Shown here in pieces: positions 2 through 10,131 of a DNA stretch of 10,131 bases (the stretch's first letter is position 1; each line of letters starts with the position of its first letter). The DNA is from a bacterium. Its GTDB lineage: Bacteria; ARS69. The stretch spans positions 1-10,131 of the forward strand of contig JALGZO010000295.1 in the NCBI GenBank assembly GCA_025774865.1. Direction: 5' to 3'. Under the pieces are notes generated by a model, which was given only the letters and a program-made list of their open reading frames with translations, ran no database searches and was not told the DNA's origin. Position numbers and translations under genes: made by a program.

Positions 2-646
2 ATCTTCCGGATCTCGCTCGAGCTCCAGCAGATCGAGTGGCGCGAGACCTTGCGGGTCCGGAGCCGGGATCTCGTGCCGGAAGGGGGGATCCGGGTCGGG
101 AACGTCGGGATCGGGGACGGGGAGCCGGTGCTCTTCGCCGGGCCCTGCTCGGTGGAGACCGAAGAGCAGATGGAGGCGGCGGCGTCCTATCTCGCGTCTC
201 TCGGTGTCCCCACGATCCTTCGCGCCGGCGCGTTCAAGCCCCGCACGAACCCGAATTCGTTCCAGGGGCTCCGCGAGGACGGGCTTCGCATTCTCCGCGA
301 GGCGGGCGACCGGCACGGATTGCCGACCGTCACGGAAGTGCTGGACGTGTCGACCCTCGATCGGGTGGCCGCGCACACCGACATGCTCCAGATCGGCGCA
401 CGCAACATGTACAACACGGAGCTCCTGAAGGCGCTTGAAGCGCAGCTTCATGGCCACGATCGAGGAGTGGCTGCTCTCGGCGGAGTACATCCTGGCCGGC
501 GGCAACGAGGCGGTCGTTCTCTGCGAGCGGGGGATCCGCACGTTCGAACCGAGCACCCGCAACACGTTCGACCTCGCAGCGATTCCCCTGATGAAGGGGG
601 AGACGTCGCTGCCGGTGGTGGCGGACGTCAGCCACGCGACCGGTAG
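2..646 (+). pseudogene. Chorismate mutase/DAHP synthase fusion, N-terminal part (frameshifted, 5' end outside window)
   Basis: An open frame enters from the left edge. Its first ~20 residues (IFRISLELQQIEW then RVRSRD) match the last helix and linker of the AroQ chorismate mutase domain in Bacillus-type AroA(G) fusions, so the gene starts upstream of the window. The DAHP synthase barrel follows, with the metal-ligand cysteine in AGPCSVE (~138-158), FKPRTNPNSFQGL (~234-272) and QIGARNMYNTELLKAL (~391-436). The intact enzyme condenses PEP with erythrose 4-phosphate (first shikimate step), and the mutase domain converts chorismate to prephenate. After about 434 the frame loses all family similarity and runs as nonsense to a stop at 644-646, while the correct reading resumes in the next frame at 435. 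About nine residues (the usual G-x-x-KPVL segment) are missing at the junction. A real inactivating deletion and an assembly error are equally possible. Confidence 0.85.
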
Positions 647-875
647 GCGGGATCTGTTGCTGCCCTGCAGCCGCGCCGCGCTGGCCGTGGGTGCGGACGG
701 CCTGATGATCGAGACGCACCCCGCGCCGGACCAGGCGCTCTCCGACGGATTCCAGCAGCTCGATCTGGAGAGCTTCGGCGAGCTGGTGCGGGCGCTCGGC
801 TTCATCGATGCTGCGCCCCCGGCGGATCGCGTGCCCGCCGGGGCCGAATCCAATCGGAAAGGAGAGGCGTCGTGA
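435..875 (+). pseudogene. DAHP synthase, C-terminal part (continuation after frameshift)
   Basis: This frame carries the rest of the same DAHP synthase domain, from LKRSFMATIEEW onward. It includes AEYILAGGNEAVVLCERGIRTF in outline, then TRNTFDLAAIP, SHATGRRD (metal-ligand histidine), the IETHPAP glutamate and ALSDG (metal-ligand aspartate). These are the standard C-terminal signatures of the Bacillus/Thermotoga-type enzyme, and the length to the stop is normal. The TTG at 435 is unlikely to be a genuine start: no Shine-Dalgarno stands before it, and the barrel half it would encode lacks the first strands and the cysteine ligand. Read it as the 3' half of the upstream fragment. The stop at 873-875 overlaps the GTG start of cmoA, so translation of the operon would depend on ribosomes finishing this frame or initiating afresh at the strong ribosome binding site at 858-864. 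Confidence 0.85.
858..864 (+). promoter_or_regulatory. Strong Shine-Dalgarno site for cmoA
   Basis: AAAGGAG stands 7 bases before the GTG at 872. It fixes the cmoA start inside the end of the DAHP synthase gene. It could let cmoA be translated independently of the frameshifted upstream gene. Confidence 0.7.
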
Positions 876-1618
876 GTGACACGGGGAAGGAACCGGACGC
901 GATCTTCGCGGACAGGCGGGACCGGATCGACGACTTCGACTTCGGGGCGGAGACGGCGGCCGTCTTCGACGACATGCTCGACCGGTCCGTCCCCCTCTAC
1001 GGAGAGATTCAGCGCATGACGGGGGAGCTCGTCTCGGAGTTCGTGGAGGATGGTACGTCCGTGTACGATCTCGGCTGCTCGACCGCGACGACGATCCTCC
1101 ATGTCGCCCGGTTCATCCCGTCGCACTTGACCGCCAAGTTCGTCGGCGTAGACTCGTCGCCGGAGATGCTGGACATTGCGCGCGAAAAGCTCCGCGAGCA
1201 CGGTTTCCCGTACCCGTGCGAGCTCAAGTGCGCGGACCTCAACGACGGCGTCAACGTCGTGGACGCCTCCGTGGTGTTGCTGCTCCTGACCCTGCAGTTT
1301 GTGAGACCATTGAACCGCGAGCGGCTGCTGCGCTCGATCCAGCAGGGGATGGAGAAGGGCGGATGCGTGGTGCTCGTGGAGAAGGTCCTGGGCGACGATT
1401 CCACGCTGAACCGCCTATTCATCGAGCGTTACTACGACATGAAGCGGCGAAACGGCTACAGCGATCTCGAAATCGCGCAGAAGCGGGAGGCGCTCGAAAA
1501 CGTCCTCGTCCCGTACCGACTCGACGAGAATATCCGACTGCTGAAGGAAGTGGGCTTCTCCGCGGCGGACGTCTTCTTCAAGTGGTACAACTTCACCGGG
1601 ATCATCGCGGTCAAGTGA
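872..1618 (+). CDS. cmoA: Carboxy-S-adenosyl-L-methionine synthase (CmoA)
   Basis: This 248-residue protein matches E. coli CmoA (247 residues) along its whole length. CmoA makes carboxy-SAM from SAM and prephenate, releasing phenylpyruvate. CmoB then uses carboxy-SAM to make 5-carboxymethoxyuridine at the wobble position of tRNAs. Visible features are the SAM-binding motif YDLGCS (65-70), VDSSPEM (93-99), TLQFVRP (140-146) and the diagnostic stretch from KRRNGYSDLE (191-200) through AQKREALENV (202-211). Arg205 aligns with E. coli Arg199, which as I recall contacts the carboxyl group of carboxy-SAM and separates CmoA from ordinary methyltransferases. The GTG start at 872 overlaps the upstream stop (GTGA) and has a good AAAGGAG site. 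The next gene starts within its own stop codon in the same way. No cmoB is in the window. A plain class I methyltransferase is the only alternative and is unlikely. Confidence 0.92.
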   Translation: MSDTGKEPDAIFADRRDRIDDFDFGAETAAVFDDMLDRSVPLYGEIQRMTGELVSEFVEDGTSVYDLGCSTATTILHVARFIPSHLTAKFVGVDSSPEMLDIAREKLREHGFPYPCELKCADLNDGVNVVDASVVLLLLTLQFVRPLNRERLLRSIQQGMEKGGCVVLVEKVLGDDSTLNRLFIERYYDMKRRNGYSDLEIAQKREALENVLVPYRLDENIRLLKEVGFSAADVFFKWYNFTGIIAVK

Positions 1619-2385
1619 GCGGCTCTCCCGTGGCCGATCCGGCCTCCGATACCTCTCGCCGCGGCCCGTGGGTCACGGTTGGCAACTTCCTGTTCGGACA
1701 CCGCAACTACGTTTTCCCGATCGTGTTCCTGGCGATCGTCCTCTTGGACCGGCCGCGGTACCCGTTCGGCGCGGCGACCTGGGATCGAGCCCTGGATGCG
1801 GTCGGGATTCTGCTGATTCTCGCGGGGCAAGGGCTTCGCGCGCTCGTGATCGGGCTCGCCTACATTCGTCGCGGTGGCAAGGACGGAAAGGTCTACGCAG
1901 ACGATCTCGTCACGAACGGCATCTTCGCCCACTCGCGCAATCCCCTCTACGTCGGCAACATCGCCGTGTTCGTCGGTCTGTTCGTCGTCCTCAACTCACC
2001 GCTGGGTTGGATCGTCGGCGTACCCGCGGTGTTCGTGGCCTACTGGTGCGTGGTGCTCGCGGAAGAGGATTTTCTCCGCCGAAAGTTCGGGGCTCCCTAC
2101 GAGGACTATTGCCGCCGCGTGAACCGGTTCCTGCCGTCTCCGAAGGGTCTGCGCGCCACGGTCTCCTCCATGCGCTTCGACTGGCCCTGCGTGATTCGCA
2201 AGGAATACGGCTCCACGTTCGCGTGGATCACGGCCTTGATCGGATTGCTCTTCTGGCAGCGGGTGGCGCACGAAGGGCTCGAGAGCGTAAGGGCCGACGT
2301 GCCCGGTTTCTTGCTCCCTTGGCTGGCCGCGGCCGTGTTGTGGGGGGTCGCCCGATTCCTCAAGAAGACAGGGCGGCTCGGGTAG
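1615..2385 (+). CDS. Isoprenylcysteine carboxyl methyltransferase-like integral membrane methyltransferase
   Basis: This 256-residue hydrophobic protein has about six membrane segments, near residues 31-47, 60-83, 113-127, 129-149, 200-215 and 230-247. The signature of the ICMT/phospholipid methyltransferase superfamily is present: NGIFAHSRNPLYVGN (101-115), the AEEDF acidic pair (149-153), and FGAPYEDYCRRVNRFLPS (158-175). Members are membrane enzymes that transfer methyl groups from SAM to prenylcysteine carboxyls, phospholipid amines or other lipophilic acceptors. The bacterial substrate is usually unknown and cannot be read from this sequence. The GTG at 1615 was chosen because it overlaps the cmoA stop as GTGA, as elsewhere in this window. 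GTG at 1630 is an alternative, and an upstream reading open to 1216 lies inside cmoA and shows no similarity. About 80 residues follow the RFLP motif and carry two extra membrane segments. The role is unknown, but coupling to cmoA is noteworthy. Confidence 0.8.
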   Translation: MSGSPVADPASDTSRRGPWVTVGNFLFGHRNYVFPIVFLAIVLLDRPRYPFGAATWDRALDAVGILLILAGQGLRALVIGLAYIRRGGKDGKVYADDLVTNGIFAHSRNPLYVGNIAVFVGLFVVLNSPLGWIVGVPAVFVAYWCVVLAEEDFLRRKFGAPYEDYCRRVNRFLPSPKGLRATVSSMRFDWPCVIRKEYGSTFAWITALIGLLFWQRVAHEGLESVRADVPGFLLPWLAAAVLWGVARFLKKTGRLG

Positions 2386-2386
2386 T

Positions 2387-3610
2387 TCAGGGGCTCGCGA
2401 GCCTCTCCAGATGCGACTTCGTGATCGTGACCTCGTCGACGAGCCGATCGTCCTGGCTCGCGTACGTGCGAATCGTGCACGTGGCCCCGCTGACGGCGAC
2501 GTGGGTCCAGAGGATCGTCTCGTCGAGGAAGAAGGCGTTCGGCCCGCATCGCCGCGTGGGCTTGTTGTCCTTCACCTTACCGCCGGCCCCGGAGACGATG
2601 TAGATCGTCCCCTCCGGATCCACGTAGTCGGGATCCTGTTCGCGATCGACGATCCGGCCGCTCGTGATGGGGTAGAGCCGCTCGTACGCGTGGGCGTGGC
2701 CCGAGAACGCGACATCGACGTCGAAGCGATCCAAAACGGGCAAGAAGTGGTCGATGACCGCGTCGTTGTTGTGTTTGTACGTGCACGTGATTCCGGGGTG
2801 GTGGAAGTACACGAAGGTCCAGCCGGCGGCGGAGTGTCTCGCCAGGTCGTCCTCGAGCCAGCGGACCTGGCGCTTCCGGTCGTAGATCTTTCCGTCCTGA
2901 GTATCGAGCGCCACGAAGTGCGCATTGCCGTAGTCGAACGAGTAGTAGTGCTCGTTGTTCGGCAGGTGCCACTCGTGCTCCCAGTTCTTCTTCGGCGAGC
3001 TCTCCCAGTCGTGATTCCCGAGCGCCGGCCACACCGTGATGTTGCTGAAGAGATCGCGCCAGGGGTACATCAGGCGTTCGTCGTAGTCGCTGGAGCGCCC
3101 CTTGGTATATACGATGTCGCCGCAGAGGATCCCGAGCTCGGGCCGCGGATCAGCTCGCAGGATCGAAGCGCTCGTGAGCACTTGCTTGCCCTTCTTGGTC
3201 CCGATGTCGCCGGTCACGAAGAAGCTGAACTCGCGGTCCGTCGGGCCCTCGTCCGTGCGAAAGCGGTACTCGCCTCCCTCGGCGAGAACGCGGTCCCCGG
3301 CCCGGACGCGGTAGAAGTATGTCGTGCCGGGATAGAGGCCCGTGAGCTTCACGTGGCGGCGCGCGCCGTCGCGCTCGGCCTCGACCGTCTGGCCGTACGC
3401 GGGGGTGGTCCCGTAGTCGACCCAGGGTGTCCCCCGGGCCGAGGCGATCCACGCGACCACCACGGAGTTCTCGCCGAGGCTCTGCAGGTAGGGCGAGCGC
3501 TCGTAGCCCGGCGCTATCTCGGGGCGAGATCGGCCGGCGTCGGCGAGCGGCGCCGCCGCGACGAACAACCCGAGTACGATGGGCACTGTCTGGCGCCAAG
3601 TCGGTAGCAT
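2387..3610 (-). CDS. Secreted purple acid phosphatase-like metallophosphoesterase
   Basis: This 407-residue protein has an N-terminal Sec signal peptide (hydrophobic 9-20, likely cleavage after ADA, about residue 25). A fibronectin-III-like purple acid phosphatase N-domain (about 33-120) begins YERSPYLQSL and includes the typical GLYPGTTYFYRV. A calcineurin-like catalytic domain follows (about 126-345). All dimetal motifs are visible: GDIG (Asp135), GDIVY (Asp165, Tyr168), GNHD (Asn199, His200), YFHHP (His270/271) and GHAHAYER (His305, His307). Tyr168 is the charge-transfer tyrosine of true purple acid phosphatases. The family hydrolyses phosphomonoesters or phosphodiesters outside the cytoplasm; the substrate here is not known. 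Four cysteines (163, 276, 355, 378) lie in the mature chain. The ATG at 3610 follows GAGG (3617-3620), which overlaps the stop of the DUF5916 gene 8 bases upstream, so the pair is very likely co-translated. The gene ends one base from the convergent methyltransferase gene. Confidence 0.88.
   Translation of the reverse strand: MLPTWRQTVPIVLGLFVAAAPLADAGRSRPEIAPGYERSPYLQSLGENSVVVAWIASARGTPWVDYGTTPAYGQTVEAERDGARRHVKLTGLYPGTTYFYRVRAGDRVLAEGGEYRFRTDEGPTDREFSFFVTGDIGTKKGKQVLTSASILRADPRPELGILCGDIVYTKGRSSDYDERLMYPWRDLFSNITVWPALGNHDWESSPKKNWEHEWHLPNNEHYYSFDYGNAHFVALDTQDGKIYDRKRQVRWLEDDLARHSAAGWTFVYFHHPGITCTYKHNNDAVIDHFLPVLDRFDVDVAFSGHAHAYERLYPITSGRIVDREQDPDYVDPEGTIYIVSGAGGKVKDNKPTRRCGPNAFFLDETILWTHVAVSGATCTIRTYASQDDRLVDEVTITKSHLERLASP
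2389..2406. terminator. GC-rich hairpin at the tail-to-tail junction of two operons (possible bidirectional terminator without U-tract)
   Basis: The palindrome GGCTCGCGAGCC (2392-2403) extends outward through a G-U, a G-C and an A-U pair to 2389-2406. It lies just past the stop of the + strand membrane methyltransferase and covers the last codons of the - strand phosphatase gene. Neither side has a T-run, so it is not a classical intrinsic terminator. It is the only hairpin seen at this convergent junction and could slow polymerase from both sides. Confidence 0.3.
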
Positions 3611-3618
3611 GGTGATCC

Positions 3619-6063
3619 TCAGAACCGCCAGGTGTACTGGACCTTCACCGGCAGCTCGTTGGAGACGAAGCCCCAGCCGCCGCTGCGGCCGATGCGATCC
3701 CAGTTGTGATTGTAGACGACGAAGAGGTCTCCATTGCGATTGAACGTCCAGCGCAGCCGGTTGTTCGTGCCGAGCTCCTCCACCTCGTTGTCGAACTGGA
3801 GCTGTGTGAAGCTACTGAGCTGCAGCTCCGGAGAAAAGTTCAGTTCGAGCCGGACGCCGACGACGTCCTCCCTGAAGTCCTTCCGGACGAGACCCAGATC
3901 CTCCAGCTCAACTTCAGGGTCCTCTTCCTGCAGCGCCTCGAGAAGCTCCTCCCAGTCATCCGGTAACGCGTCGACGGTGCCCTCGTTCCGCTCGCCGGTC
4001 AGCTCCAGCGTCAGGAGGGCGGACGGTCTCACCGAGAGCGTCGCCTCGAGGGTGTTCAGGTCGCCATTGTAGAAGTCGCCGAACTCCCAGAGGATCTGGC
4101 CGCTGACCTTGCGCTTCGGGGCGGCGCGGGCACCGGCGACGAAGCGAACGTACTCGTAGGACCCGGGGCGAATGTCCACGCCGCCCGACACCTCGAAGGG
4201 CTCGTCCGGCCGGTCTCCCTCGGGCTCCACCGAGAATTCGAACTGGTCGCCGCTCTCCAGCTGCCAGTCGAGCGGCTTGATCGTCGACTGGTAACTCACC
4301 CAGTCGCTGTTGTCGTGTTCGTTGTACAACGTGATCCCCACCTCGTGGGACATTTGCCGCACGAAGGACCAGGCCGGGCGCGGATTGAACTCACCGGCGG
4401 CGTTCCAGATGTTGACGTCGTTCCTCGGGACGAAGCCCAGCGACGGGTCGAAACCGTCGCCGATCCGGATCGAGCTCAGCTGAAGATCGAGGAGATCGTT
4501 CGGATATTCGATGTCGAACCCGTACGCGGACCGGTTACCGTCGAGGTCCTGCCGATCGTTCGCCAATCCCCACACGCCGATGAGGAGATTCTTCTCGTCT
4601 CGGAAGCTCGACGTGCGAAAAGTGAAGTCGGCTCCGACCATCCAGCTGTCTTGGCGATCCAACGGCACGCGGATCTCTCCCTCCTCGGGGTCATCGATGC
4701 GCAGGACGCCGTCCGCCACCTGATCACCGACGGTGCCGATCAGTCCGATCGAGGACTCCTCGAGGACGTTCTGCGTGACCCGGACCGCCCCCATGGTCGT
4801 GTTGGGTACGTCGAAGTCGGTCTCGTCGTCGATCGCCAAGCCTTCGGTCTCGCGCGTGTTCACGACGAGTGCACCGAGGTTCGTCTGGCCCGAGCGGCCG
4901 GTGATCTTGCCGCCCACGTTGATGGGGATCTCGAGCTGATCCTCGTCTTGATTGAGGCCGACGAGACCGATCGTCCGCGTGAAGAACGGGAGGACGGTCT
5001 CCTCGTCCAGTCCCAAACCGAACTCGAAGATGTCCGCGCCCTCGAGGAAGAAGGCGCGTTTCTCGGGAAAGAAGAGGTCGAAGCGGGTGAGGTTGACCTG
5101 CCGAGAGTCGACCTCCGTCTCGGCGAAGTCGGTGTTGACCGTCAGCGAAGTGACGAGGTTTGGCCCCAGCTTCTTGGTCACGTCGAGGCTGATGTCAGCG
5201 TCGTACTCCGTTTCCTCGTCCGCACTCAGCTTCTCCGCCCGGCCGACGACGGCGGGGCGCACGTCCAGGCCCAAACCGAGGTCGAACTCCGGTAGGTCGG
5301 TCAAGAGGCCGGCCCGGCTCGTCTGGGAAATCTCGAAGTCCTGGCTCGCGCCCGACCAGCGGCTCGTCTCCTGGAGGCGTTGTACGCGGCGCTCGACGTT
5401 GAAGCCCCATTCCGTGAGACCGGGCTGGAAACTCAGGCTCTTGATGGGAATCCGGACCACGGCGCTCCAGCCTTCCTCATCCACGGCGGTTCGGGCGTCC
5501 CAGAGCGCATCCCAGTTGCTGTTGATCTCGGCTCGTCCCACGATCAGTCCGTCGAATCGCGACCCGGCGGGGTTCACGCCGAACGCGTAGCCGGATCGGC
5601 CGTCCTGAAACGTGTCGAACACGATCATGACGTGGTCTTCCTCGTCGAGCTCGGAGTCCCGGGCCTTCGAGTAGGAGACGATCCCGCTGGGGTCGTCGTC
5701 GAAGCAGCGCACCCCCACGACGATGTCGCTCTCGTTCACGAGCACTTTCACGATCGTCTGCCCGGCCGGGTCCGCGCCCTCCTCGGGCTCGACGGTGATC
5801 AGATTCTCGATGGGAGAGGCCACGGACCACGTCGAACCATCCATCCATGCGTTGAATACGAAGTTCACGGAAAGGGGGCCGGCCCCGACTTCCGGCCGCC
5901 TCCCGGACGCGGCGGCCATCTCCTCTTCTCCGTCCTCTTCTTCCTCCGGTTCGGCGTACAATGTCGAGGGTCCGGACCACGCCAGCAGCAGGGCGAACAT
6001 CGATGTCCAAAGCGCTCGGCGTTCTCGGGACGGAATGAGAGGGCGGGAGGGTTGCGCAGACAT
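3619..6063 (-). CDS. DUF5916 outer-membrane beta-barrel protein with N-terminal CBM9-like domain
   Basis: This 814-residue exported protein has an arginine-rich start and hydrophobic segment (18-30), with probable signal cleavage after LYA (residue 37). A very acidic stretch (38-48, nearly all Glu/Asp) follows. Residues about 62-235 look like the CBM9-type beta-sandwich that heads DUF5916 proteins, including HVMIVFDTF (144-152), YAFGVNPAG (159-167) and WSAVVRIPIKSL (199-210). The DUF5916 hallmark is NTDFAETEVDSRQVNLTRF (310-328) then FFPEKRAFFLEG (331-342). The remainder is rich in alternating amphipathic strands and ends in WRF, the aromatic C-terminus typical of barrels inserted by the BAM complex. 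Function is unestablished for the family. The ATG at 6063 was chosen because GGAGG lies 10 bases upstream and a signal peptide follows. An open reading upstream to 6216 has neither. The next gene, the phosphatase, starts 8 bases after its stop. Confidence 0.85.
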   Translation of the reverse strand: MSAQPSRPLIPSRERRALWTSMFALLLAWSGPSTLYAEPEEEEDGEEEMAAASGRRPEVGAGPLSVNFVFNAWMDGSTWSVASPIENLITVEPEEGADPAGQTIVKVLVNESDIVVGVRCFDDDPSGIVSYSKARDSELDEEDHVMIVFDTFQDGRSGYAFGVNPAGSRFDGLIVGRAEINSNWDALWDARTAVDEEGWSAVVRIPIKSLSFQPGLTEWGFNVERRVQRLQETSRWSGASQDFEISQTSRAGLLTDLPEFDLGLGLDVRPAVVGRAEKLSADEETEYDADISLDVTKKLGPNLVTSLTVNTDFAETEVDSRQVNLTRFDLFFPEKRAFFLEGADIFEFGLGLDEETVLPFFTRTIGLVGLNQDEDQLEIPINVGGKITGRSGQTNLGALVVNTRETEGLAIDDETDFDVPNTTMGAVRVTQNVLEESSIGLIGTVGDQVADGVLRIDDPEEGEIRVPLDRQDSWMVGADFTFRTSSFRDEKNLLIGVWGLANDRQDLDGNRSAYGFDIEYPNDLLDLQLSSIRIGDGFDPSLGFVPRNDVNIWNAAGEFNPRPAWSFVRQMSHEVGITLYNEHDNSDWVSYQSTIKPLDWQLESGDQFEFSVEPEGDRPDEPFEVSGGVDIRPGSYEYVRFVAGARAAPKRKVSGQILWEFGDFYNGDLNTLEATLSVRPSALLTLELTGERNEGTVDALPDDWEELLEALQEEDPEVELEDLGLVRKDFREDVVGVRLELNFSPELQLSSFTQLQFDNEVEELGTNNRLRWTFNRNGDLFVVYNHNWDRIGRSGGWGFVSNELPVKVQYTWRF

Positions 6064-6073
6064 GATGGTCGTG

Positions 6074-6078
6074 CCTCC
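6074..6078 (-). promoter_or_regulatory. Shine-Dalgarno site deciding the start of the DUF5916 gene
   Basis: GGAGG on the - strand lies 10 bases before the ATG at 6063. The in-frame start at 6216 has no comparable site and would put 51 extra polar residues ahead of the signal peptide. Confidence 0.65.
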
Positions 6079-6295
6079 GAACAATGTTTCCGCGTGGACG
6101 TGCCGCCGGAACGAATGCGCCGAGTCCGAGTGTCCTGACTTCGCAGGAAAGGCCGCAAAATCCTTCTTTACCCGCGAGTCGCGACAAGCGTAACAGTGAA
6201 TCCGGACAGTTCGCAAATTGTTTTTCGATGTGTTTGCTAATGCGCAGTATCACCATAGCAATAGTTGCGTGGACCGAGCGTGATCTCGGGGGAAG

Positions 6296-6349
6296 TTGTC
6301 ACTAGTGGCCGTTCGTGACAATGATGGTGTCAAGCTCGTCAACTTGACA
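6296..6349. promoter_or_regulatory. Candidate operator: alternating TGTCA/TGACA half-sites
   Basis: Four half-sites alternate in orientation: TGTCA at 6297-6301, TGACA at 6316-6320, TGTCA at 6328-6332 and TGACA at 6345-6349. The first two form TTGTCAC-N12-GTGACAA (6296-6321), a perfect 7-base-arm inverted repeat. The last two form TGTCAAG-N8-CTTGACA (6328-6349), also with perfect 7-base arms, and its right arm contains the -35 hexamer. This layout fits cooperative binding by a dimeric repressor or activator. The regulator is not identifiable. Confidence 0.45.
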
Positions 6350-6373
6350 GTGCACATCGCGGACGGATACCAT
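6344..6373 (+). promoter_or_regulatory. Sigma70-like promoter for the lipoprotein operon
   Basis: A perfect TTGACA -35 box (6344-6349) is followed after 18 bases by TACCAT (6368-6373), a four-of-six match to the -10 consensus. Transcription would start near 6380, giving a leader of about 33 bases before the ATG at 6413 with its ribosome binding site. Initiation there would exclude the 6296 reading as a start. The -35 box lies inside an inverted repeat that could be an operator. Confidence 0.5.
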
Positions 6374-6400
6374 CTGAGTCCCGCCAATCACCATAATGTT

Positions 6401-6404
6401 GGAG
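6401..6404 (+). promoter_or_regulatory. Shine-Dalgarno site deciding the lipoprotein start
   Basis: GGAG (within TTGGAGAAAG) lies 8 bases before the ATG at 6413. This supports that start over the in-frame reading from 6296, which would bury the export signal behind 39 unrelated residues. Confidence 0.65.
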
Positions 6405-6412
6405 AAAGCACG

Positions 6413-7318
6413 ATGCCGAGGAACACTGTTCGTCCACTGGGAGCCGGTGCGACCCGGAGACCGACGCACATCACCTTTGTCGCGGCGGCGGCCGGTCTCG
6501 TCCTCGCGTCGGCGGCTTGCGGCGATGAGGCCGGTCAAGAGAACCATGAAGACTTCGACGGCGCCAAGTTCTCGAATCCGACGAACGTCGACAACGAGTG
6601 GATGTCGCTGAAGCCCGGCACGCGGTGGGTCTGGGAGGGCACGACGGTCGACGACGACGAGGTGCTTCCTCACCGCGTGGTGATCAATGTCACCGATCTG
6701 ACCAAGGTGATCGGGGGTGTGGAGTCGGTCGTCACGTGGGATCTGGACTACAGTGACGGCGAGCTCGTCGAGGCGGAGCTCGCCTTCTTCGCTCAGGACG
6801 ACGACGGGAACGTCTGGCGCATGGGCGAGTATCCGGAGGAGTACGAGGATGGCGAGTTCGTGGTGGCTCCCGCGTGGGTCCACGGCGTCGAGGGCGCGGT
6901 GGCCGGCATCTCCATGCGGGCCGATCCGAAGGTGGGCACGCCCAGCTACTCGCAGGGCTGGGGGCCCGGGGTCGACTTCACGGACCGCGGAAAGGTCCAT
7001 GAGTTTGTCGACGAAGTGTGTGTCCCCTTGGACTGCTACAAGAACGTGCTCGTGATTGATGAGAGCAGCCTGTCGGAGCCGGACGCTCATCAGTTCAAGT
7101 ACTGGGCCAAGGGCGCGGGCAACGTACGGGTCGGCTGGGCCGGCGAGGGCGAGAAGACGCAGGAGGTGCTCGAGCTGATTTCCATGAAGCAGCTCGACGA
7201 AGAGGGGCTGGCCGAGGTTCGCGCGGGTGCCCGGGCGCTCGAGAAGGGCGCCTACGAGAGAAGCAAGGACGTGTACGGCGAGACGCCGCCGCTGCAGCAG
7301 CGAGGTGGCGAGAAGTGA
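6413..7318 (+). CDS. Exported protein of unknown function, probable lipoprotein (first of a related tandem pair)
   Basis: This 301-residue protein begins with a basic segment including RR at 15-16. A hydrophobic stretch (20-35) follows, ending SAAC, with Cys36 the likely lipidated residue. The lipobox is imperfect because the -3 position is Ser. The mature part is acidic and predicted beta-rich, starting FSNPTNVDNEWMSLKPGTRW (53-72). It then shows GELVEAELAFFAQ (116-128) and AWVHGVEGAVAGISMRA through DPKVG (154-175). A YWAKGAGNVRV segment (230-240) and a charged helical tail (258-290) follow. C203 and C208 might pair as a disulfide. I do not recognise a characterised family. The next gene shares the central motif and order of elements, so the two are probably paralogs, perhaps partners at the outer membrane. 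The ATG at 6413 is supported by GGAG and by the export signal. Its stop overlaps the next start (GTGA). Confidence 0.75.
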   Translation: MPRNTVRPLGAGATRRPTHITFVAAAAGLVLASAACGDEAGQENHEDFDGAKFSNPTNVDNEWMSLKPGTRWVWEGTTVDDDEVLPHRVVINVTDLTKVIGGVESVVTWDLDYSDGELVEAELAFFAQDDDGNVWRMGEYPEEYEDGEFVVAPAWVHGVEGAVAGISMRADPKVGTPSYSQGWGPGVDFTDRGKVHEFVDEVCVPLDCYKNVLVIDESSLSEPDAHQFKYWAKGAGNVRVGWAGEGEKTQEVLELISMKQLDEEGLAEVRAGARALEKGAYERSKDVYGETPPLQQRGGEK

Positions 7319-8043
7319 GACGGGCGACGATCGTCGTGGCGACGGCGATCGCCGGCGTCGCCCTCGGATGTGTCGGCGCCCGGAACGCGTCGGCCTGGCA
7401 GGAGGACTTCGGCCTCTCGGAACGTACTCTCTCACCGACGGGACGGAACGACTTCTTCATCCTGGAGCCGGGGTTCCGGCTCGTTCTCGAAAGCAAGAAC
7501 GAGAAGCTGGCGATCACGGTCCTGGACGAGACCCGGGAGGTGGACGGCGTCGTGACCCGGGTCGTGGAGGAGCGCGAGTGGAAGAAGGGCGCGCTCAAGG
7601 AGGTCTCGAGGAATTTCTTCGCGATCTGTGAGGAGTCGAACGACGTCTTCTACTTCGGTGAGGAAGTCGACATGTACAAGGGCGGCAAGATCAAGAATCA
7701 CAAGGGGGCGTGGCTCGCCGGTGAAGACGGCGCGCGGGCCGGCTTGATCATGCCGGCTCAGCCGAAGGTGGGCATGAAGTACTACCAGGAGATTGCCCCG
7801 GGCGTCGCCATGGACCGGGCCGAAGTCCTCACTCTCGAGGAGGTGTTCGAGACCCCGGCGGGCCGATTCGAACAATGCCTGAAGACGAAAGAGGGCACGG
7901 CGCTGAACTACTTCGAGCGCGAGCACAAGAGGTATGCGCCGGGGATCGGGCTCATCCAGGACCAGAAGCTGCGGCTGACTCAGTACGGATTCATCGACCC
8001 GGAGGTAGCGCGCGTCTCAGCCCACCGGGACCGGGGACCGTAG
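7315..8043 (+). CDS. Exported protein of unknown function (second of a related tandem pair)
   Basis: This 242-residue protein starts MRR, then a hydrophobic segment (5-18). Two export readings are possible: signal peptidase I cleavage after ASA (residue 27), or lipidation at Cys19 after ALG. The mature region follows the plan of its neighbour: NDFFILEPGFRLVLES (45-60), GALKEVSRNFFAICEESNDV (92-111) and AWLAGEDGARAGLIM (132-146). PAQPKVG (147-153), RFEQCLKTKEG (184-194) and YAPGIGLIQ (207-215) complete it. The AWxxGxxGAxAGxxMxAxPKVG core is shared by both proteins. It lacks the neighbour's charged helical tail. GTG at 7315 lies 6 bases after GAGGTGG (7302-7308) and overlaps the upstream stop. 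Its last 27 bases overlap, tail to tail, the end of the - strand glycosyltransferase gene. No enzymatic residues stand out; a structural or ligand-binding beta protein is a guess. Confidence 0.75.
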   Translation: MRRATIVVATAIAGVALGCVGARNASAWQEDFGLSERTLSPTGRNDFFILEPGFRLVLESKNEKLAITVLDETREVDGVVTRVVEEREWKKGALKEVSRNFFAICEESNDVFYFGEEVDMYKGGKIKNHKGAWLAGEDGARAGLIMPAQPKVGMKYYQEIAPGVAMDRAEVLTLEEVFETPAGRFEQCLKTKEGTALNYFEREHKRYAPGIGLIQDQKLRLTQYGFIDPEVARVSAHRDRGP

Positions 8044-9237
8044 CTGCCGGGCCAGTTCGGTGATTCGCTCCGCCCTCGCCGTCCAGCTATGGCCCGCCAC
8101 CACCCGTTCTCGCGCGGCGGCGCCGAGGCTCTTCCCCCGATCGGGTCGTGACAGGATGTGGCGGATGCAGCTTGCCAGATTGTCCGCGTCACCGGGGTCG
8201 TAGAGAAGGCCGGTCTCGTCGGGGACGATGAGCTCGGTCACTTGCCCCATGCGTGCGCCGACGATCGGCTTTCCCATCGCCATGAATTCGAAGAGCTTCA
8301 GTGGAGAGAAGTACTCCTCCTCGCCACCGAAGGGCACGATGGCGACGTCCATCGCGGCGATGAACTCCGGGACTCGCTCGTGCGGTACGGCGCCCGGGCA
8401 GATCACTCGACCACCGCCGCGCGCCTCCATCTCCTCGAGGTGCTCGCCGGGACCGACGGCGAGGAAGCGCACGGACGGATCGACCTGACTCAACCGGTCC
8501 ACGGCGTCCAGCACCGTATCGAGATCGTGCCACACCCGGAGACTTCCCACGTAGCCGATGACCGGCTCCCCGTGCAGCCCGTACTCGCGGCGAACCGCGT
8601 CCCCGGACGTCGCAGGGTCGAAGCGCCCGGGATCGACACCATTCGGAACGTGCGCAACGCGCTCGGGAGGGACCCCCAAGGTCCGAGCGTGGTCCACGAC
8701 GGCTTGCGAAACGGCGAGGACGACGTCGGCTCGACGCAGGATCTCGGCTTCCATCTCACCCGCCGTCTGTCCGAGAACCCACCCCCGGCGTCGCGCTCCT
8801 TCCTGCGCGAGAGGCGCGTTGACTTCCAGGAGAATCGGGATGTCGAGTTCCTCGGCGATCTCCACCCCGGCGTAGCCGAAGAGGGTGTAACGCTCGTAGA
8901 TCGCGTCGGGGCGGAACTCCTCGAGCAGGGGACGCAGCTTCGCGCGGAGCTGCTCCGAATAGAGGAGCCGACGAAGCTCCCGGAACAGATGCGGAGGAAC
9001 GCCGACCTCCTCTCGGTTCAGGAGTCGCGCGGCGGTTCGCGCGAGACCCCCCAGGGGGACCCGATACACTCCGGCTTCACGGGCAACGACTTCGTCGGCC
9101 CCCGGCTCGGGCGCATAGATGCGCACCTCGTGTCCCAGCTCGCGCAAGGCGCGCGAGATCTCCCGGACGTGGACGGAACAACCCTTCGACCCGAGCACGG
9201 GAACGCCGAAATCGGAGCAGAGGTAGGCGATCTTCAC
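8017..9237 (-). CDS. GT4-type glycosyltransferase
   Basis: This 406-residue GT-B fold glycosyltransferase has an N-terminal acceptor domain starting MKIAYLCSDFGVPVLGSKG (1-19), with the glycine-rich loop typical of group 1 enzymes. It continues with HVREISRALRELGHEVRIYAP (23-43) and ADVVLAVSQAVVDH (170-183). The nucleotide-sugar domain begins near VPNGVDPGRFDP (197-208) and PVIGYVGSLRVWHDLD (225-240). It contains FSPLKLFEFMAMGKPIVGA (310-328), the usual donor-binding segment, and ends ETGLLYDPGD with a GHSW helix (382-385). It transfers a sugar from an activated donor to a glycan or lipid-linked acceptor at the cytoplasmic face; the sugar cannot be told. GTG at 9237 was chosen because it gives the canonical N-terminus and overlaps the upstream stop as GTGA. 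The open reading to 9726 lies inside the neighbouring gene. There is only a weak Shine-Dalgarno, so translation probably depends on coupling. Confidence 0.88.
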   Translation of the reverse strand: MKIAYLCSDFGVPVLGSKGCSVHVREISRALRELGHEVRIYAPEPGADEVVAREAGVYRVPLGGLARTAARLLNREEVGVPPHLFRELRRLLYSEQLRAKLRPLLEEFRPDAIYERYTLFGYAGVEIAEELDIPILLEVNAPLAQEGARRRGWVLGQTAGEMEAEILRRADVVLAVSQAVVDHARTLGVPPERVAHVPNGVDPGRFDPATSGDAVRREYGLHGEPVIGYVGSLRVWHDLDTVLDAVDRLSQVDPSVRFLAVGPGEHLEEMEARGGGRVICPGAVPHERVPEFIAAMDVAIVPFGGEEEYFSPLKLFEFMAMGKPIVGARMGQVTELIVPDETGLLYDPGDADNLASCIRHILSRPDRGKSLGAAARERVVAGHSWTARAERITELARQLRSPVPVG

Positions 9238-10131
9238 GGGGCGCCGACCGCCACGGGTTCCAACCCGCTGACGCCTCTTCGGGCGAACAGCTCCGAAAGC
9301 TCGCGTACGTTCTCGCCGCGATCGAAGCGCCGCGCGACGGTTTCGCGGCCGCGGGCTCCGAGCTGCGCCCGCAAGTCGGCGTCCGCGAGCAGGCGGCGCA
9401 AGGCCGACGCCAGAGCCGGTGCATCCCGTTGCGGGATCAGGAGTCCGTTTCGTCCGTCCTCGATCACCTCGGGAATGCCGGAGATCGTGGTCGAGACGAT
9501 CGGGAGCTCCACCGCCAGGGCCTCCAGCAGCACGTTCGGAATGCCGTCTCGATCGCCGTCTTCGAGCACCCGACACGGCAGGGCGAACACGGTGGCCCGG
9601 TGGTAAGCGTCGAGGGCCTCCTCCTGGCTGCAGCTGCCCGGCAGCGACACGACGTTCTCGAGGGAGAACTCCTCGACCATGCGCTCCAGCCGCTCGCGTT
9701 CCGGACCTTCCCCGACGATCAGGCACCGGAAGGGCACGCCGTCGCGCTTGAGGACGTCACAGGCGCGGAGGAGATCGGTGAAGCCCTTCTTACGAACCAG
9801 TCGCCCGACCGAGAGGATGAGCGGCACATCCGGCGCCGCCGGCTCGAGCCGCGGACGGAATTTGGCGAGATCGATCCCGTGATAACCGAGCAGGATCTTC
9901 GAGCGTGACTCGGGCCCGACGAGACTCTGCAGATACTCGCGATTGGCCCCGGTGCACGTGACGACGAAGCTCGCGGCTTCGAGGCGCTCCCTGAGCACGT
10001 GTGGGGCCGTCGTATAGACGTCACGCGCGTGGGCGGAAAAGCTGAACGGAATGCCCGTCAGTTTGCTGGTCAGCATCGCGATCCGTGTCGCGCCGCCGGC
10101 GAAGTGGGCGTGGAGGTGGCGAAGCCCGCTC
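9234..10131 (-). CDS. GT4-type glycosyltransferase (partial, 5' end outside window)
   Basis: The frame is open to the right edge. Residues upstream of the first in-frame ATG (10076) read SGLRHLHAHFAGGATRIA, a standard GT4 segment, so the gene begins beyond the window. Visible parts continue with LTGIPFSFSAHARDVYT, the acceptor-domain helix. The donor domain then shows ILLGYHGIDLAKFRP, LILSVGRLVRKKGFTDLL, LIVGEGPERERLE, DGDRDGIPNVLLEALA and SGIPEVIEDGRNGLL. The family E-x7-E motif appears as D-x7-E in DGIPNVLLE, a variant I recall as common in colanic-acid/WcaL-like transferases. It probably adds a hexose during exopolysaccharide or surface glycan assembly; donor and acceptor are unknown. Its stop (9234-9236) overlaps the GTG start of the next glycosyltransferase, so the two are co-translated and presumably act in one pathway. 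Confidence 0.87.
   Translation of the reverse strand, partial: SGLRHLHAHFAGGATRIAMLTSKLTGIPFSFSAHARDVYTTAPHVLRERLEAASFVVTCTGANREYLQSLVGPESRSKILLGYHGIDLAKFRPRLEPAAPDVPLILSVGRLVRKKGFTDLLRACDVLKRDGVPFRCLIVGEGPERERLERMVEEFSLENVVSLPGSCSQEEALDAYHRATVFALPCRVLEDGDRDGIPNVLLEALAVELPIVSTTISGIPEVIEDGRNGLLIPQRDAPALASALRRLLADADLRAQLGARGRETVARRFDRGENVRELSELFARRGVSGLEPVAVGAP

Follow-up and report, generated by a model that had tools for sequence, protein, structure and literature searches.

A cmoA-linked membrane transferase related to LmtA: a putative carboxy-SAM-dependent carboxymethylation module with lipid A as candidate acceptor

Gene organization of the locus

The window analyzed here is one whole contig of 10,131 nt (G000:C298:1-10131), taken from an assembly of 4.7 Mb in 785 contigs that is 92.65% complete and 8.3% contaminated. 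The contig opens with three plus-strand genes, which encode a DAHP synthase, the carboxy-SAM (Cx-SAM) synthase CmoA and an integral membrane transferase of the PEMT family, as follows:

2..436, plus strand: N-terminal part of DAHP synthase in frame 2, open at the contig start (PF00793, 104.6 bits; PRK12595 positions 78-221 matched)
434..437, plus strand: junction of an out-of-frame deletion of ~26 nt, where frames 2 and 3 abut (intact relative in L174)
435..875, plus strand: C-terminal part of DAHP synthase in frame 3 (PF00793, 118.7 bits; PRK08673, 193.8 bits)
872..875, plus strand: GTGA overlap of the DAHP synthase stop and the cmoA start, read from the sequence
872..1618, plus strand: cmoA, carboxy-SAM synthase, 248 aa (TIGR00740, 237.1 bits against a cut-off of 193.3; matches 4gek, E. 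coli CmoA)
1615..1618, plus strand: GTGA overlap of the cmoA stop and the transferase start, read from the sequence
1615..2385, plus strand: PEMT-family integral membrane transferase, 256 aa, GTG start (PF04191, 48.8 bits against a cut-off of 25)

The preliminary description of this DNA had reported that consecutive genes overlap by GTGA, and we found these overlaps at 872-875 and 1615-1618; NTGA overlaps between the paired genes were found again in most loci that carry the cmoA-transferase pair. Contamination was considered as the origin of the contig; its GC content of 65.2% matches that of other loci of the genome (65-69%), which is weak evidence against it, and the contamination level of the MAG is 8.3%. 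Further along the plus strand, two genes with a 4-nt overlap (6296-7318 and 7315-8043) have signal-like N termini and gave no Pfam match. The minus-strand regions at 2387-6216 and 8017-10130 encode a purple acid phosphatase-like protein, a DUF5916 protein and two GT4-type glycosyltransferases.

The first gene had been described as a chorismate mutase/DAHP synthase. This gene type is confirmed by an intact homologue in another pair locus (L174, genome G870), to which the C-terminal part of the window DAHP synthase is 72% identical, but the window copy is truncated by the contig start and carries a frameshift that the description overlooked. At most the tail of a chorismate mutase domain fits in the gene as it stands, and such a tail is possibly present in 2-436. 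The intact frame with both domains, characteristic of the bifunctional CM/DAHP synthase (PRK12595), is thus found in L174 and is broken in the window. At the frame junction, PRK08673 profile positions 198-205 were absent, with about nine codons missing, and the intact relative in L174 reads ...MYNTELLKALGKVAKPVLLKRGFMATLDE... at the deleted stretch. The break is either a pseudogene lesion or an assembly error. The junction at 434-437 coincides with a near-palindrome, gcgcttgaagcgc.

Chorismate-pathway genes beside the pair

At least three different arrangements of chorismate-pathway genes with the pair were observed. In L174, the intact gene for the bifunctional chorismate mutase/DAHP synthase (453 bits) is followed by cmoA and then by the transferase (65% and 48% identical to those of the window, respectively), and because of this intact operon of the same order we regard the three-gene order of the window as a genuine type of operon. 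A chorismate mutase gene (PF01817) separates the transferase from cmoA in L079, and in L177 aroC and aroK lie divergently beside cmoA. Such neighbours would make metabolic sense because the co-substrate of CmoA is prephenate (PMC10491745). The earlier suggestion that the first gene supplies prephenate to CmoA is thus backed by the L174 operon and by the chorismate mutase gene placed between the paired genes elsewhere.

Identity of CmoA

The second gene product exceeded the TIGR00740 equivalog cut-off, in agreement with its previous naming as CmoA, and is, as judged from its sequence, a true carboxy-SAM synthase. One residue is of particular relevance:

1484..1486, plus strand: codon of Arg205, the counterpart of E. 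coli CmoA Arg199 in the alignment

In E. coli CmoA, Arg199 forms a salt bridge with the carboxylate of Cx-SAM (PMC3663124), and the Arg at this position was present in all 19 pair CmoAs. A difference was observed at residue 138 (window 1283-1285), which corresponds to E. coli Asn132: most pair CmoAs have Leu, Ser, Val or Ile here, and Asn is kept in 10 of 11 other CmoAs. Asn132 of the E. coli enzyme is a SAM contact, and its substitution in most pair CmoAs was counted against our preferred reading.

Conserved pairing of cmoA with the transferase gene

When public bacterial genomes were scanned with the membrane protein as query, five full-length relatives were found in MAGs whose labels are Deltaproteobacteria, Planctomycetota and Nitrospirae. 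In all five cases the gene follows immediately after that for CmoA, and in most of them stop and start codons overlap by 4 nt. We then searched the phylum to which the Planctomycetota hit belongs (294 genomes) and that of one Deltaproteobacteria hit (395 genomes). The scores of the homologues fell into two well separated classes (≥190 bits and ≤145 bits); every upper-class homologue adjoins cmoA, and none of the lower-class homologues examined lies beside it. The same was seen in 386 diverse genomes, in which new upper-class members in G868, G870 and G842 adjoin cmoA and the lower-class members among the matches listed do not. G868 and G375 have an identical CmoA and probably represent a single genome, which leaves G870 and G842 as the genuinely new pair genomes. 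Overall, about 19 genomes have the adjacency; their labels are Planctomycetota, Deltaproteobacteria, Nitrospirae and the small phylum of the window, in which only one of five genomes carries the pair. The gene order is reversed in G277 and G129, yet the adjacency is kept. The check proposed in the preliminary description, whether the two genes stay together in other species, showed their adjacency to be strict across several phyla. Relatives of the transferase were not found in the viral contigs searched.

In one locus (L080, genome G136, 5710-12668), two near-identical copies of a LAB_N-cmoA-transferase unit flank a transposase-like ORF (9375-10439), and each copy has its transferase divided between two reading frames.

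Absence of CmoB from genomes with the pair

CmoB was known to be missing from the window, and a search of the whole genome with the CmoB model (TIGR00452) likewise gave no match over the cut-off; the best match reached 32.8 of the required 275 bits and covered profile positions 111-219 only. CmoB over the cut-off was found in none of the 17 pair genomes tested (the window genome and 16 further ones, three of which are essentially complete single-contig genomes; G870 and G842 lie outside this count). The weak matches in pair genomes did not extend beyond the generic SAM domain and lay mostly within profile positions 100-230. In contrast, of 11 genomes in which cmoA lacks the membrane partner, 10 have CmoB. 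These include eight Planctomycetota genomes with an unpaired CmoA 30-38% identical to that of the window, all of which have CmoB at 343-472 bits and serve as a control that the model detects CmoB outside Proteobacteria, and two further genomes, G030 and G045, with CmoB at 382 and 308 bits. The difference (0/17 paired versus 10/11 unpaired) gave a Fisher p of about 8e-7, which ignores phylogeny and is optimistic because of phylogenetic dependence; within Planctomycetota, the corresponding counts were 0/8 and 8/8 (p 1.6e-4). A cmoB elsewhere in the genome together with a non-conserved adjacency had been named as the outcome that would overturn the initial idea, and the opposite was found.

Genome G009 has neither CmoB nor a membrane partner. 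Its CmoA (L009, 1495-2154) is 47% identical to that of the window and is encoded near a radical-SAM-like protein and a LeuA-like gene, and this genome possibly harbors another carboxy-SAM consumer.

Relationship of the membrane transferase to LmtA and ICMT

The third gene product had been called ICMT/phospholipid-methyltransferase-like. Its membership of the PEMT family (PF04191) holds, but it is nearer to LmtA (TIGR04571, 86 bits, far under the curated cut-off of 325) than to ICMT (NF040696, 40.1 bits, under the curated cut-off of 160). The LmtA model matched all 16 linked proteins searched, and LmtA rather than ICMT was their best family match. In a tree of 75 sequences, the cmoA-linked transferases formed one clade (support 0.93) apart from the LmtA-like paralogues. 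Three sequence elements were considered:

1858..1878, plus strand: AYIRRGG loop, residues 82-88, with Arg86, which is invariant in the cmoA-linked clade and mostly Thr in paralogues
1936..1959, plus strand: RNPLYVGN motif, residues 108-115, common to the PEMT/ICMT family, with invariant positions; aligned to the RHPxY motif of ICMT
2062..2067, plus strand: Glu150-Glu151, the invariant pair of the PEMT/ICMT family, from the alignment

We compared the residues of 19 linked members with those of 56 unlinked paralogues, most of them LmtA-like. Arg86 was found in 19 of 19 linked members and an Arg in 3 of 56 paralogues; the linked clade has Arg86-Gly87-Gly88, whereas the paralogues mostly have Thr-Ser-Gly. 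Tyr83, His106 and Arg171 further distinguished the linked clade. By sequence, the Arg86 loop was aligned with the GSNFNH loop of ICMT. The use of Arg86 as a diagnostic across the superfamily was ruled out, as an Arg also occupies the position of Arg86 in the alignment of another PEMT subfamily, which has an HIGRSARTR loop (L163, L166, L168) and is not linked to cmoA.

An AF2 model of the transferase, built from six sequences and without a placed ligand, had a pLDDT of 73 overall and under 50 at the Arg86 loop (residues 83-88). Because this key loop is poorly modelled, we draw no pocket argument from the structure. A Foldseek search with the model gave no significant match; a second structure comparison ranked ICMT (5vg9) first with a Z-score of 7.5, which is modest for a helical protein.

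Proposed mechanism and candidate acceptor

We propose that cmoA and the PEMT-family gene together encode a two-enzyme module for carboxymethylation, in which a membrane carboxymethyltransferase uses carboxy-SAM, most likely on lipid A; we assign this reading a probability of roughly 0.6. CmoA would make carboxy-SAM from SAM and prephenate, and in some lineages prephenate would be raised by a shikimate/chorismate enzyme encoded within the operon or next to it. The membrane transferase, predicted to belong to a sister clade of LmtA-like lipid A phosphate methyltransferases, would move the carboxymethyl group from carboxy-SAM to an acceptor in the membrane, for which lipid A is the most likely candidate and, by analogy with LmtA, a phosphate oxygen the likely site. 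Since cmoA shares an operon with an LmtA-related enzyme and CmoB is missing, cells with the pair probably draw on carboxy-SAM to tag their outer-membrane lipid. Gene identities, the conserved pairing, the lack of CmoB and the LPS context of part of the loci are computed results, from which the cofactor, the role of Arg86 and the acceptor are inferred. The broken first gene of the window and the presence of the pair in only one of five genomes of its phylum weigh against this reading.

The acceptor was approached through the gene neighborhood. In L074, the pair lies between a gene for a LAB_N protein (LAB_N being the lipid A biosynthesis N-terminal domain) and genes for two ArnT-like proteins, followed by ArnB, ArnC, ArnA (1094.6 bits) and ArnD, with a two-component system upstream. 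This layout recurs by homology in L077 and L080. LAB_N and ArnT-like protein genes occur near the pair in L075, an LptF/LptG gene adjoins cmoA in L076, and KdsA-like, SIS-CBS (KdsD-like) and PMT genes lie near the pair in L036. Such LPS neighbours occur in part of the lineages; the flanks are unrelated in the window, in the Nitrospirae loci and in several others. LpxC, the absence of which from a genome with the pair would contradict a role in lipid A modification, was found in all 17 pair genomes tested; this count is read only as a refutation test that was passed.

LmtA of Leptospira methylates the lipid A 1-phosphate, according to the title of Hinckley 2005 as cited in PMC10248169. Because LmtA is the nearest characterized relative and LPS genes are neighbours, we consider lipid A the most likely acceptor, with moderate confidence at about even odds. 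A carboxymethylated phosphate is the simplest guess given the LmtA reaction, and the phosphate oxygen as the exact acceptor atom is weakly suggested by this analogy. The original proposal of a membrane acceptor, lipid or protein, thus narrows toward lipid, which the LmtA homology and LPS neighbours appear to favour. A somewhat more tentative extension, to which we give slightly less than even odds, is that the membrane-embedded enzyme carboxymethylates lipid A, probably on phosphate, as a new kind of modification that would provide a carboxylate handle and, in certain Planctomycetota, act alongside L-Ara4N decoration. The role of Ara4N is charge masking; a carboxymethyl phosphate would not lower the negative charge and would fit poorly with such masking unless it served as a handle for a further step.

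The strongest alternative, which we regard as unlikely, is that the transferase uses carboxy-SAM on another acceptor, such as a phospholipid, undecaprenyl phosphate, an aminolipid or a membrane protein. The restriction of LPS neighbours to part of the loci, the PlsC-type acyltransferase encoded downstream in L035 and the homology to ICMT, a protein-modifying enzyme, all point in this direction. Against it stand the best family match of the linked proteins, the arn, lptF/G and kds-type neighbours and the uniform presence of LpxC, although LpxC is common in Gram-negatives.

We infer that the membrane transferase very probably uses carboxy-SAM, as the preliminary description had ventured; both the absence of CmoB and the strict adjacency argue for this, and a Cx-SAM synthase is genetically coupled to the enzyme, as in the class of Cx-SAM-dependent carboxymethyltransferases. 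In known carboxy-SAM enzymes the carboxylate is held by a cationic residue, Lys91 in CmoB (PMC4482062) and the characteristic Arg350 in CmoX (PMC12783734), and for this reason Arg86 is taken as the candidate cation that may hold the carboxylate of carboxy-SAM; the low model confidence of its loop and the Arg at this place in three unlinked paralogues count against this role. A less probable alternative than a different acceptor is that the membrane protein is an ordinary SAM-dependent LmtA-like methyltransferase and that another, unrecognized enzyme consumes carboxy-SAM. The characterized family members LmtA and ICMT use SAM, the core motifs RNPxY and EE are unchanged, and the Arg86 loop is without a structural placement. 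These points are outweighed in our view by the obligate adjacency to cmoA of this one clade and of no sister clade, by the lack of CmoB in the pair genomes tested and by the clade-specific changes in the very loop that aligns with GSNFNH of ICMT.

It is highly improbable that the pair is still devoted to forming cmo5U in tRNA, with CmoB replaced by a diverged or non-homologous enzyme and with the membrane gene as a co-transcribed neighbour only: tRNA modification is the best known role of CmoA, and a non-homologous replacement, of which MccB and CmoX are examples, could escape the CmoB model, but CmoB matches in pair genomes are limited to the generic SAM domain, and several of these genomes have LPS genes, not tRNA genes, as neighbours.

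Comparison with known carboxy-SAM systems

The known carboxy-SAM users are CmoB, TglF, MccB and CmoX, and none acting on a lipid was found in the openly available literature searched. The destinations of carboxy-SAM in this literature are four, namely tRNA, a peptide thiol, a nucleotide-peptide and phage DNA, and its use on a membrane lipid was unreported there. If our reading is true, a membrane lipid would be the fifth destination and the first reached by an integral membrane enzyme, and a charged, couplable group would join the list of lipid A modifications. The annotation of cmoA would also be corrected in cmoB-less genomes, where a tRNA modification is wrongly implied, and the clade would offer a clean case of methyltransferases that may have switched cofactor.

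The pair resembles CmoA/CmoB, which carboxymethylates the tRNA wobble uridine, in that a true CmoA makes the donor and a second enzyme would transfer the group; unlike that system, the pair genomes tested lack CmoB, and the second enzyme is integral to the membrane and has a different fold. In TglE/TglF and MccS/MccB (PMC10491745), a cmoA homologue is likewise paired with a dedicated carboxymethyltransferase, but the acceptors are a peptide thiol and a nucleotide-peptide and the enzymes are soluble. The CmoA/CmoX system for carboxymethylcytosine in phage DNA (PMC12783734) shares the placement of cmoA beside a repurposed methyltransferase, the lack of CmoB and a characteristic Arg; CmoX is a soluble C5-MTase homologue that acts on DNA, whereas the present protein belongs to the PEMT/ICMT family and is encoded in bacterial chromosomal operons. 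Isoprenylcysteine carboxyl methyltransferase (ICMT/Ste14) has similar sequence motifs and probably the same core fold, but the window protein reaches only 40 of 160 bits and lacks a prenyl-protein context. LmtA of Leptospira is the closest characterized homologue of the membrane protein, and part of the pair loci share a lipid A gene context; the window protein differs from it in scoring 86 of 325 bits, in having Arg-Gly-Gly in place of the Thr-Ser-Gly of LmtA-like paralogues and in being linked to cmoA.
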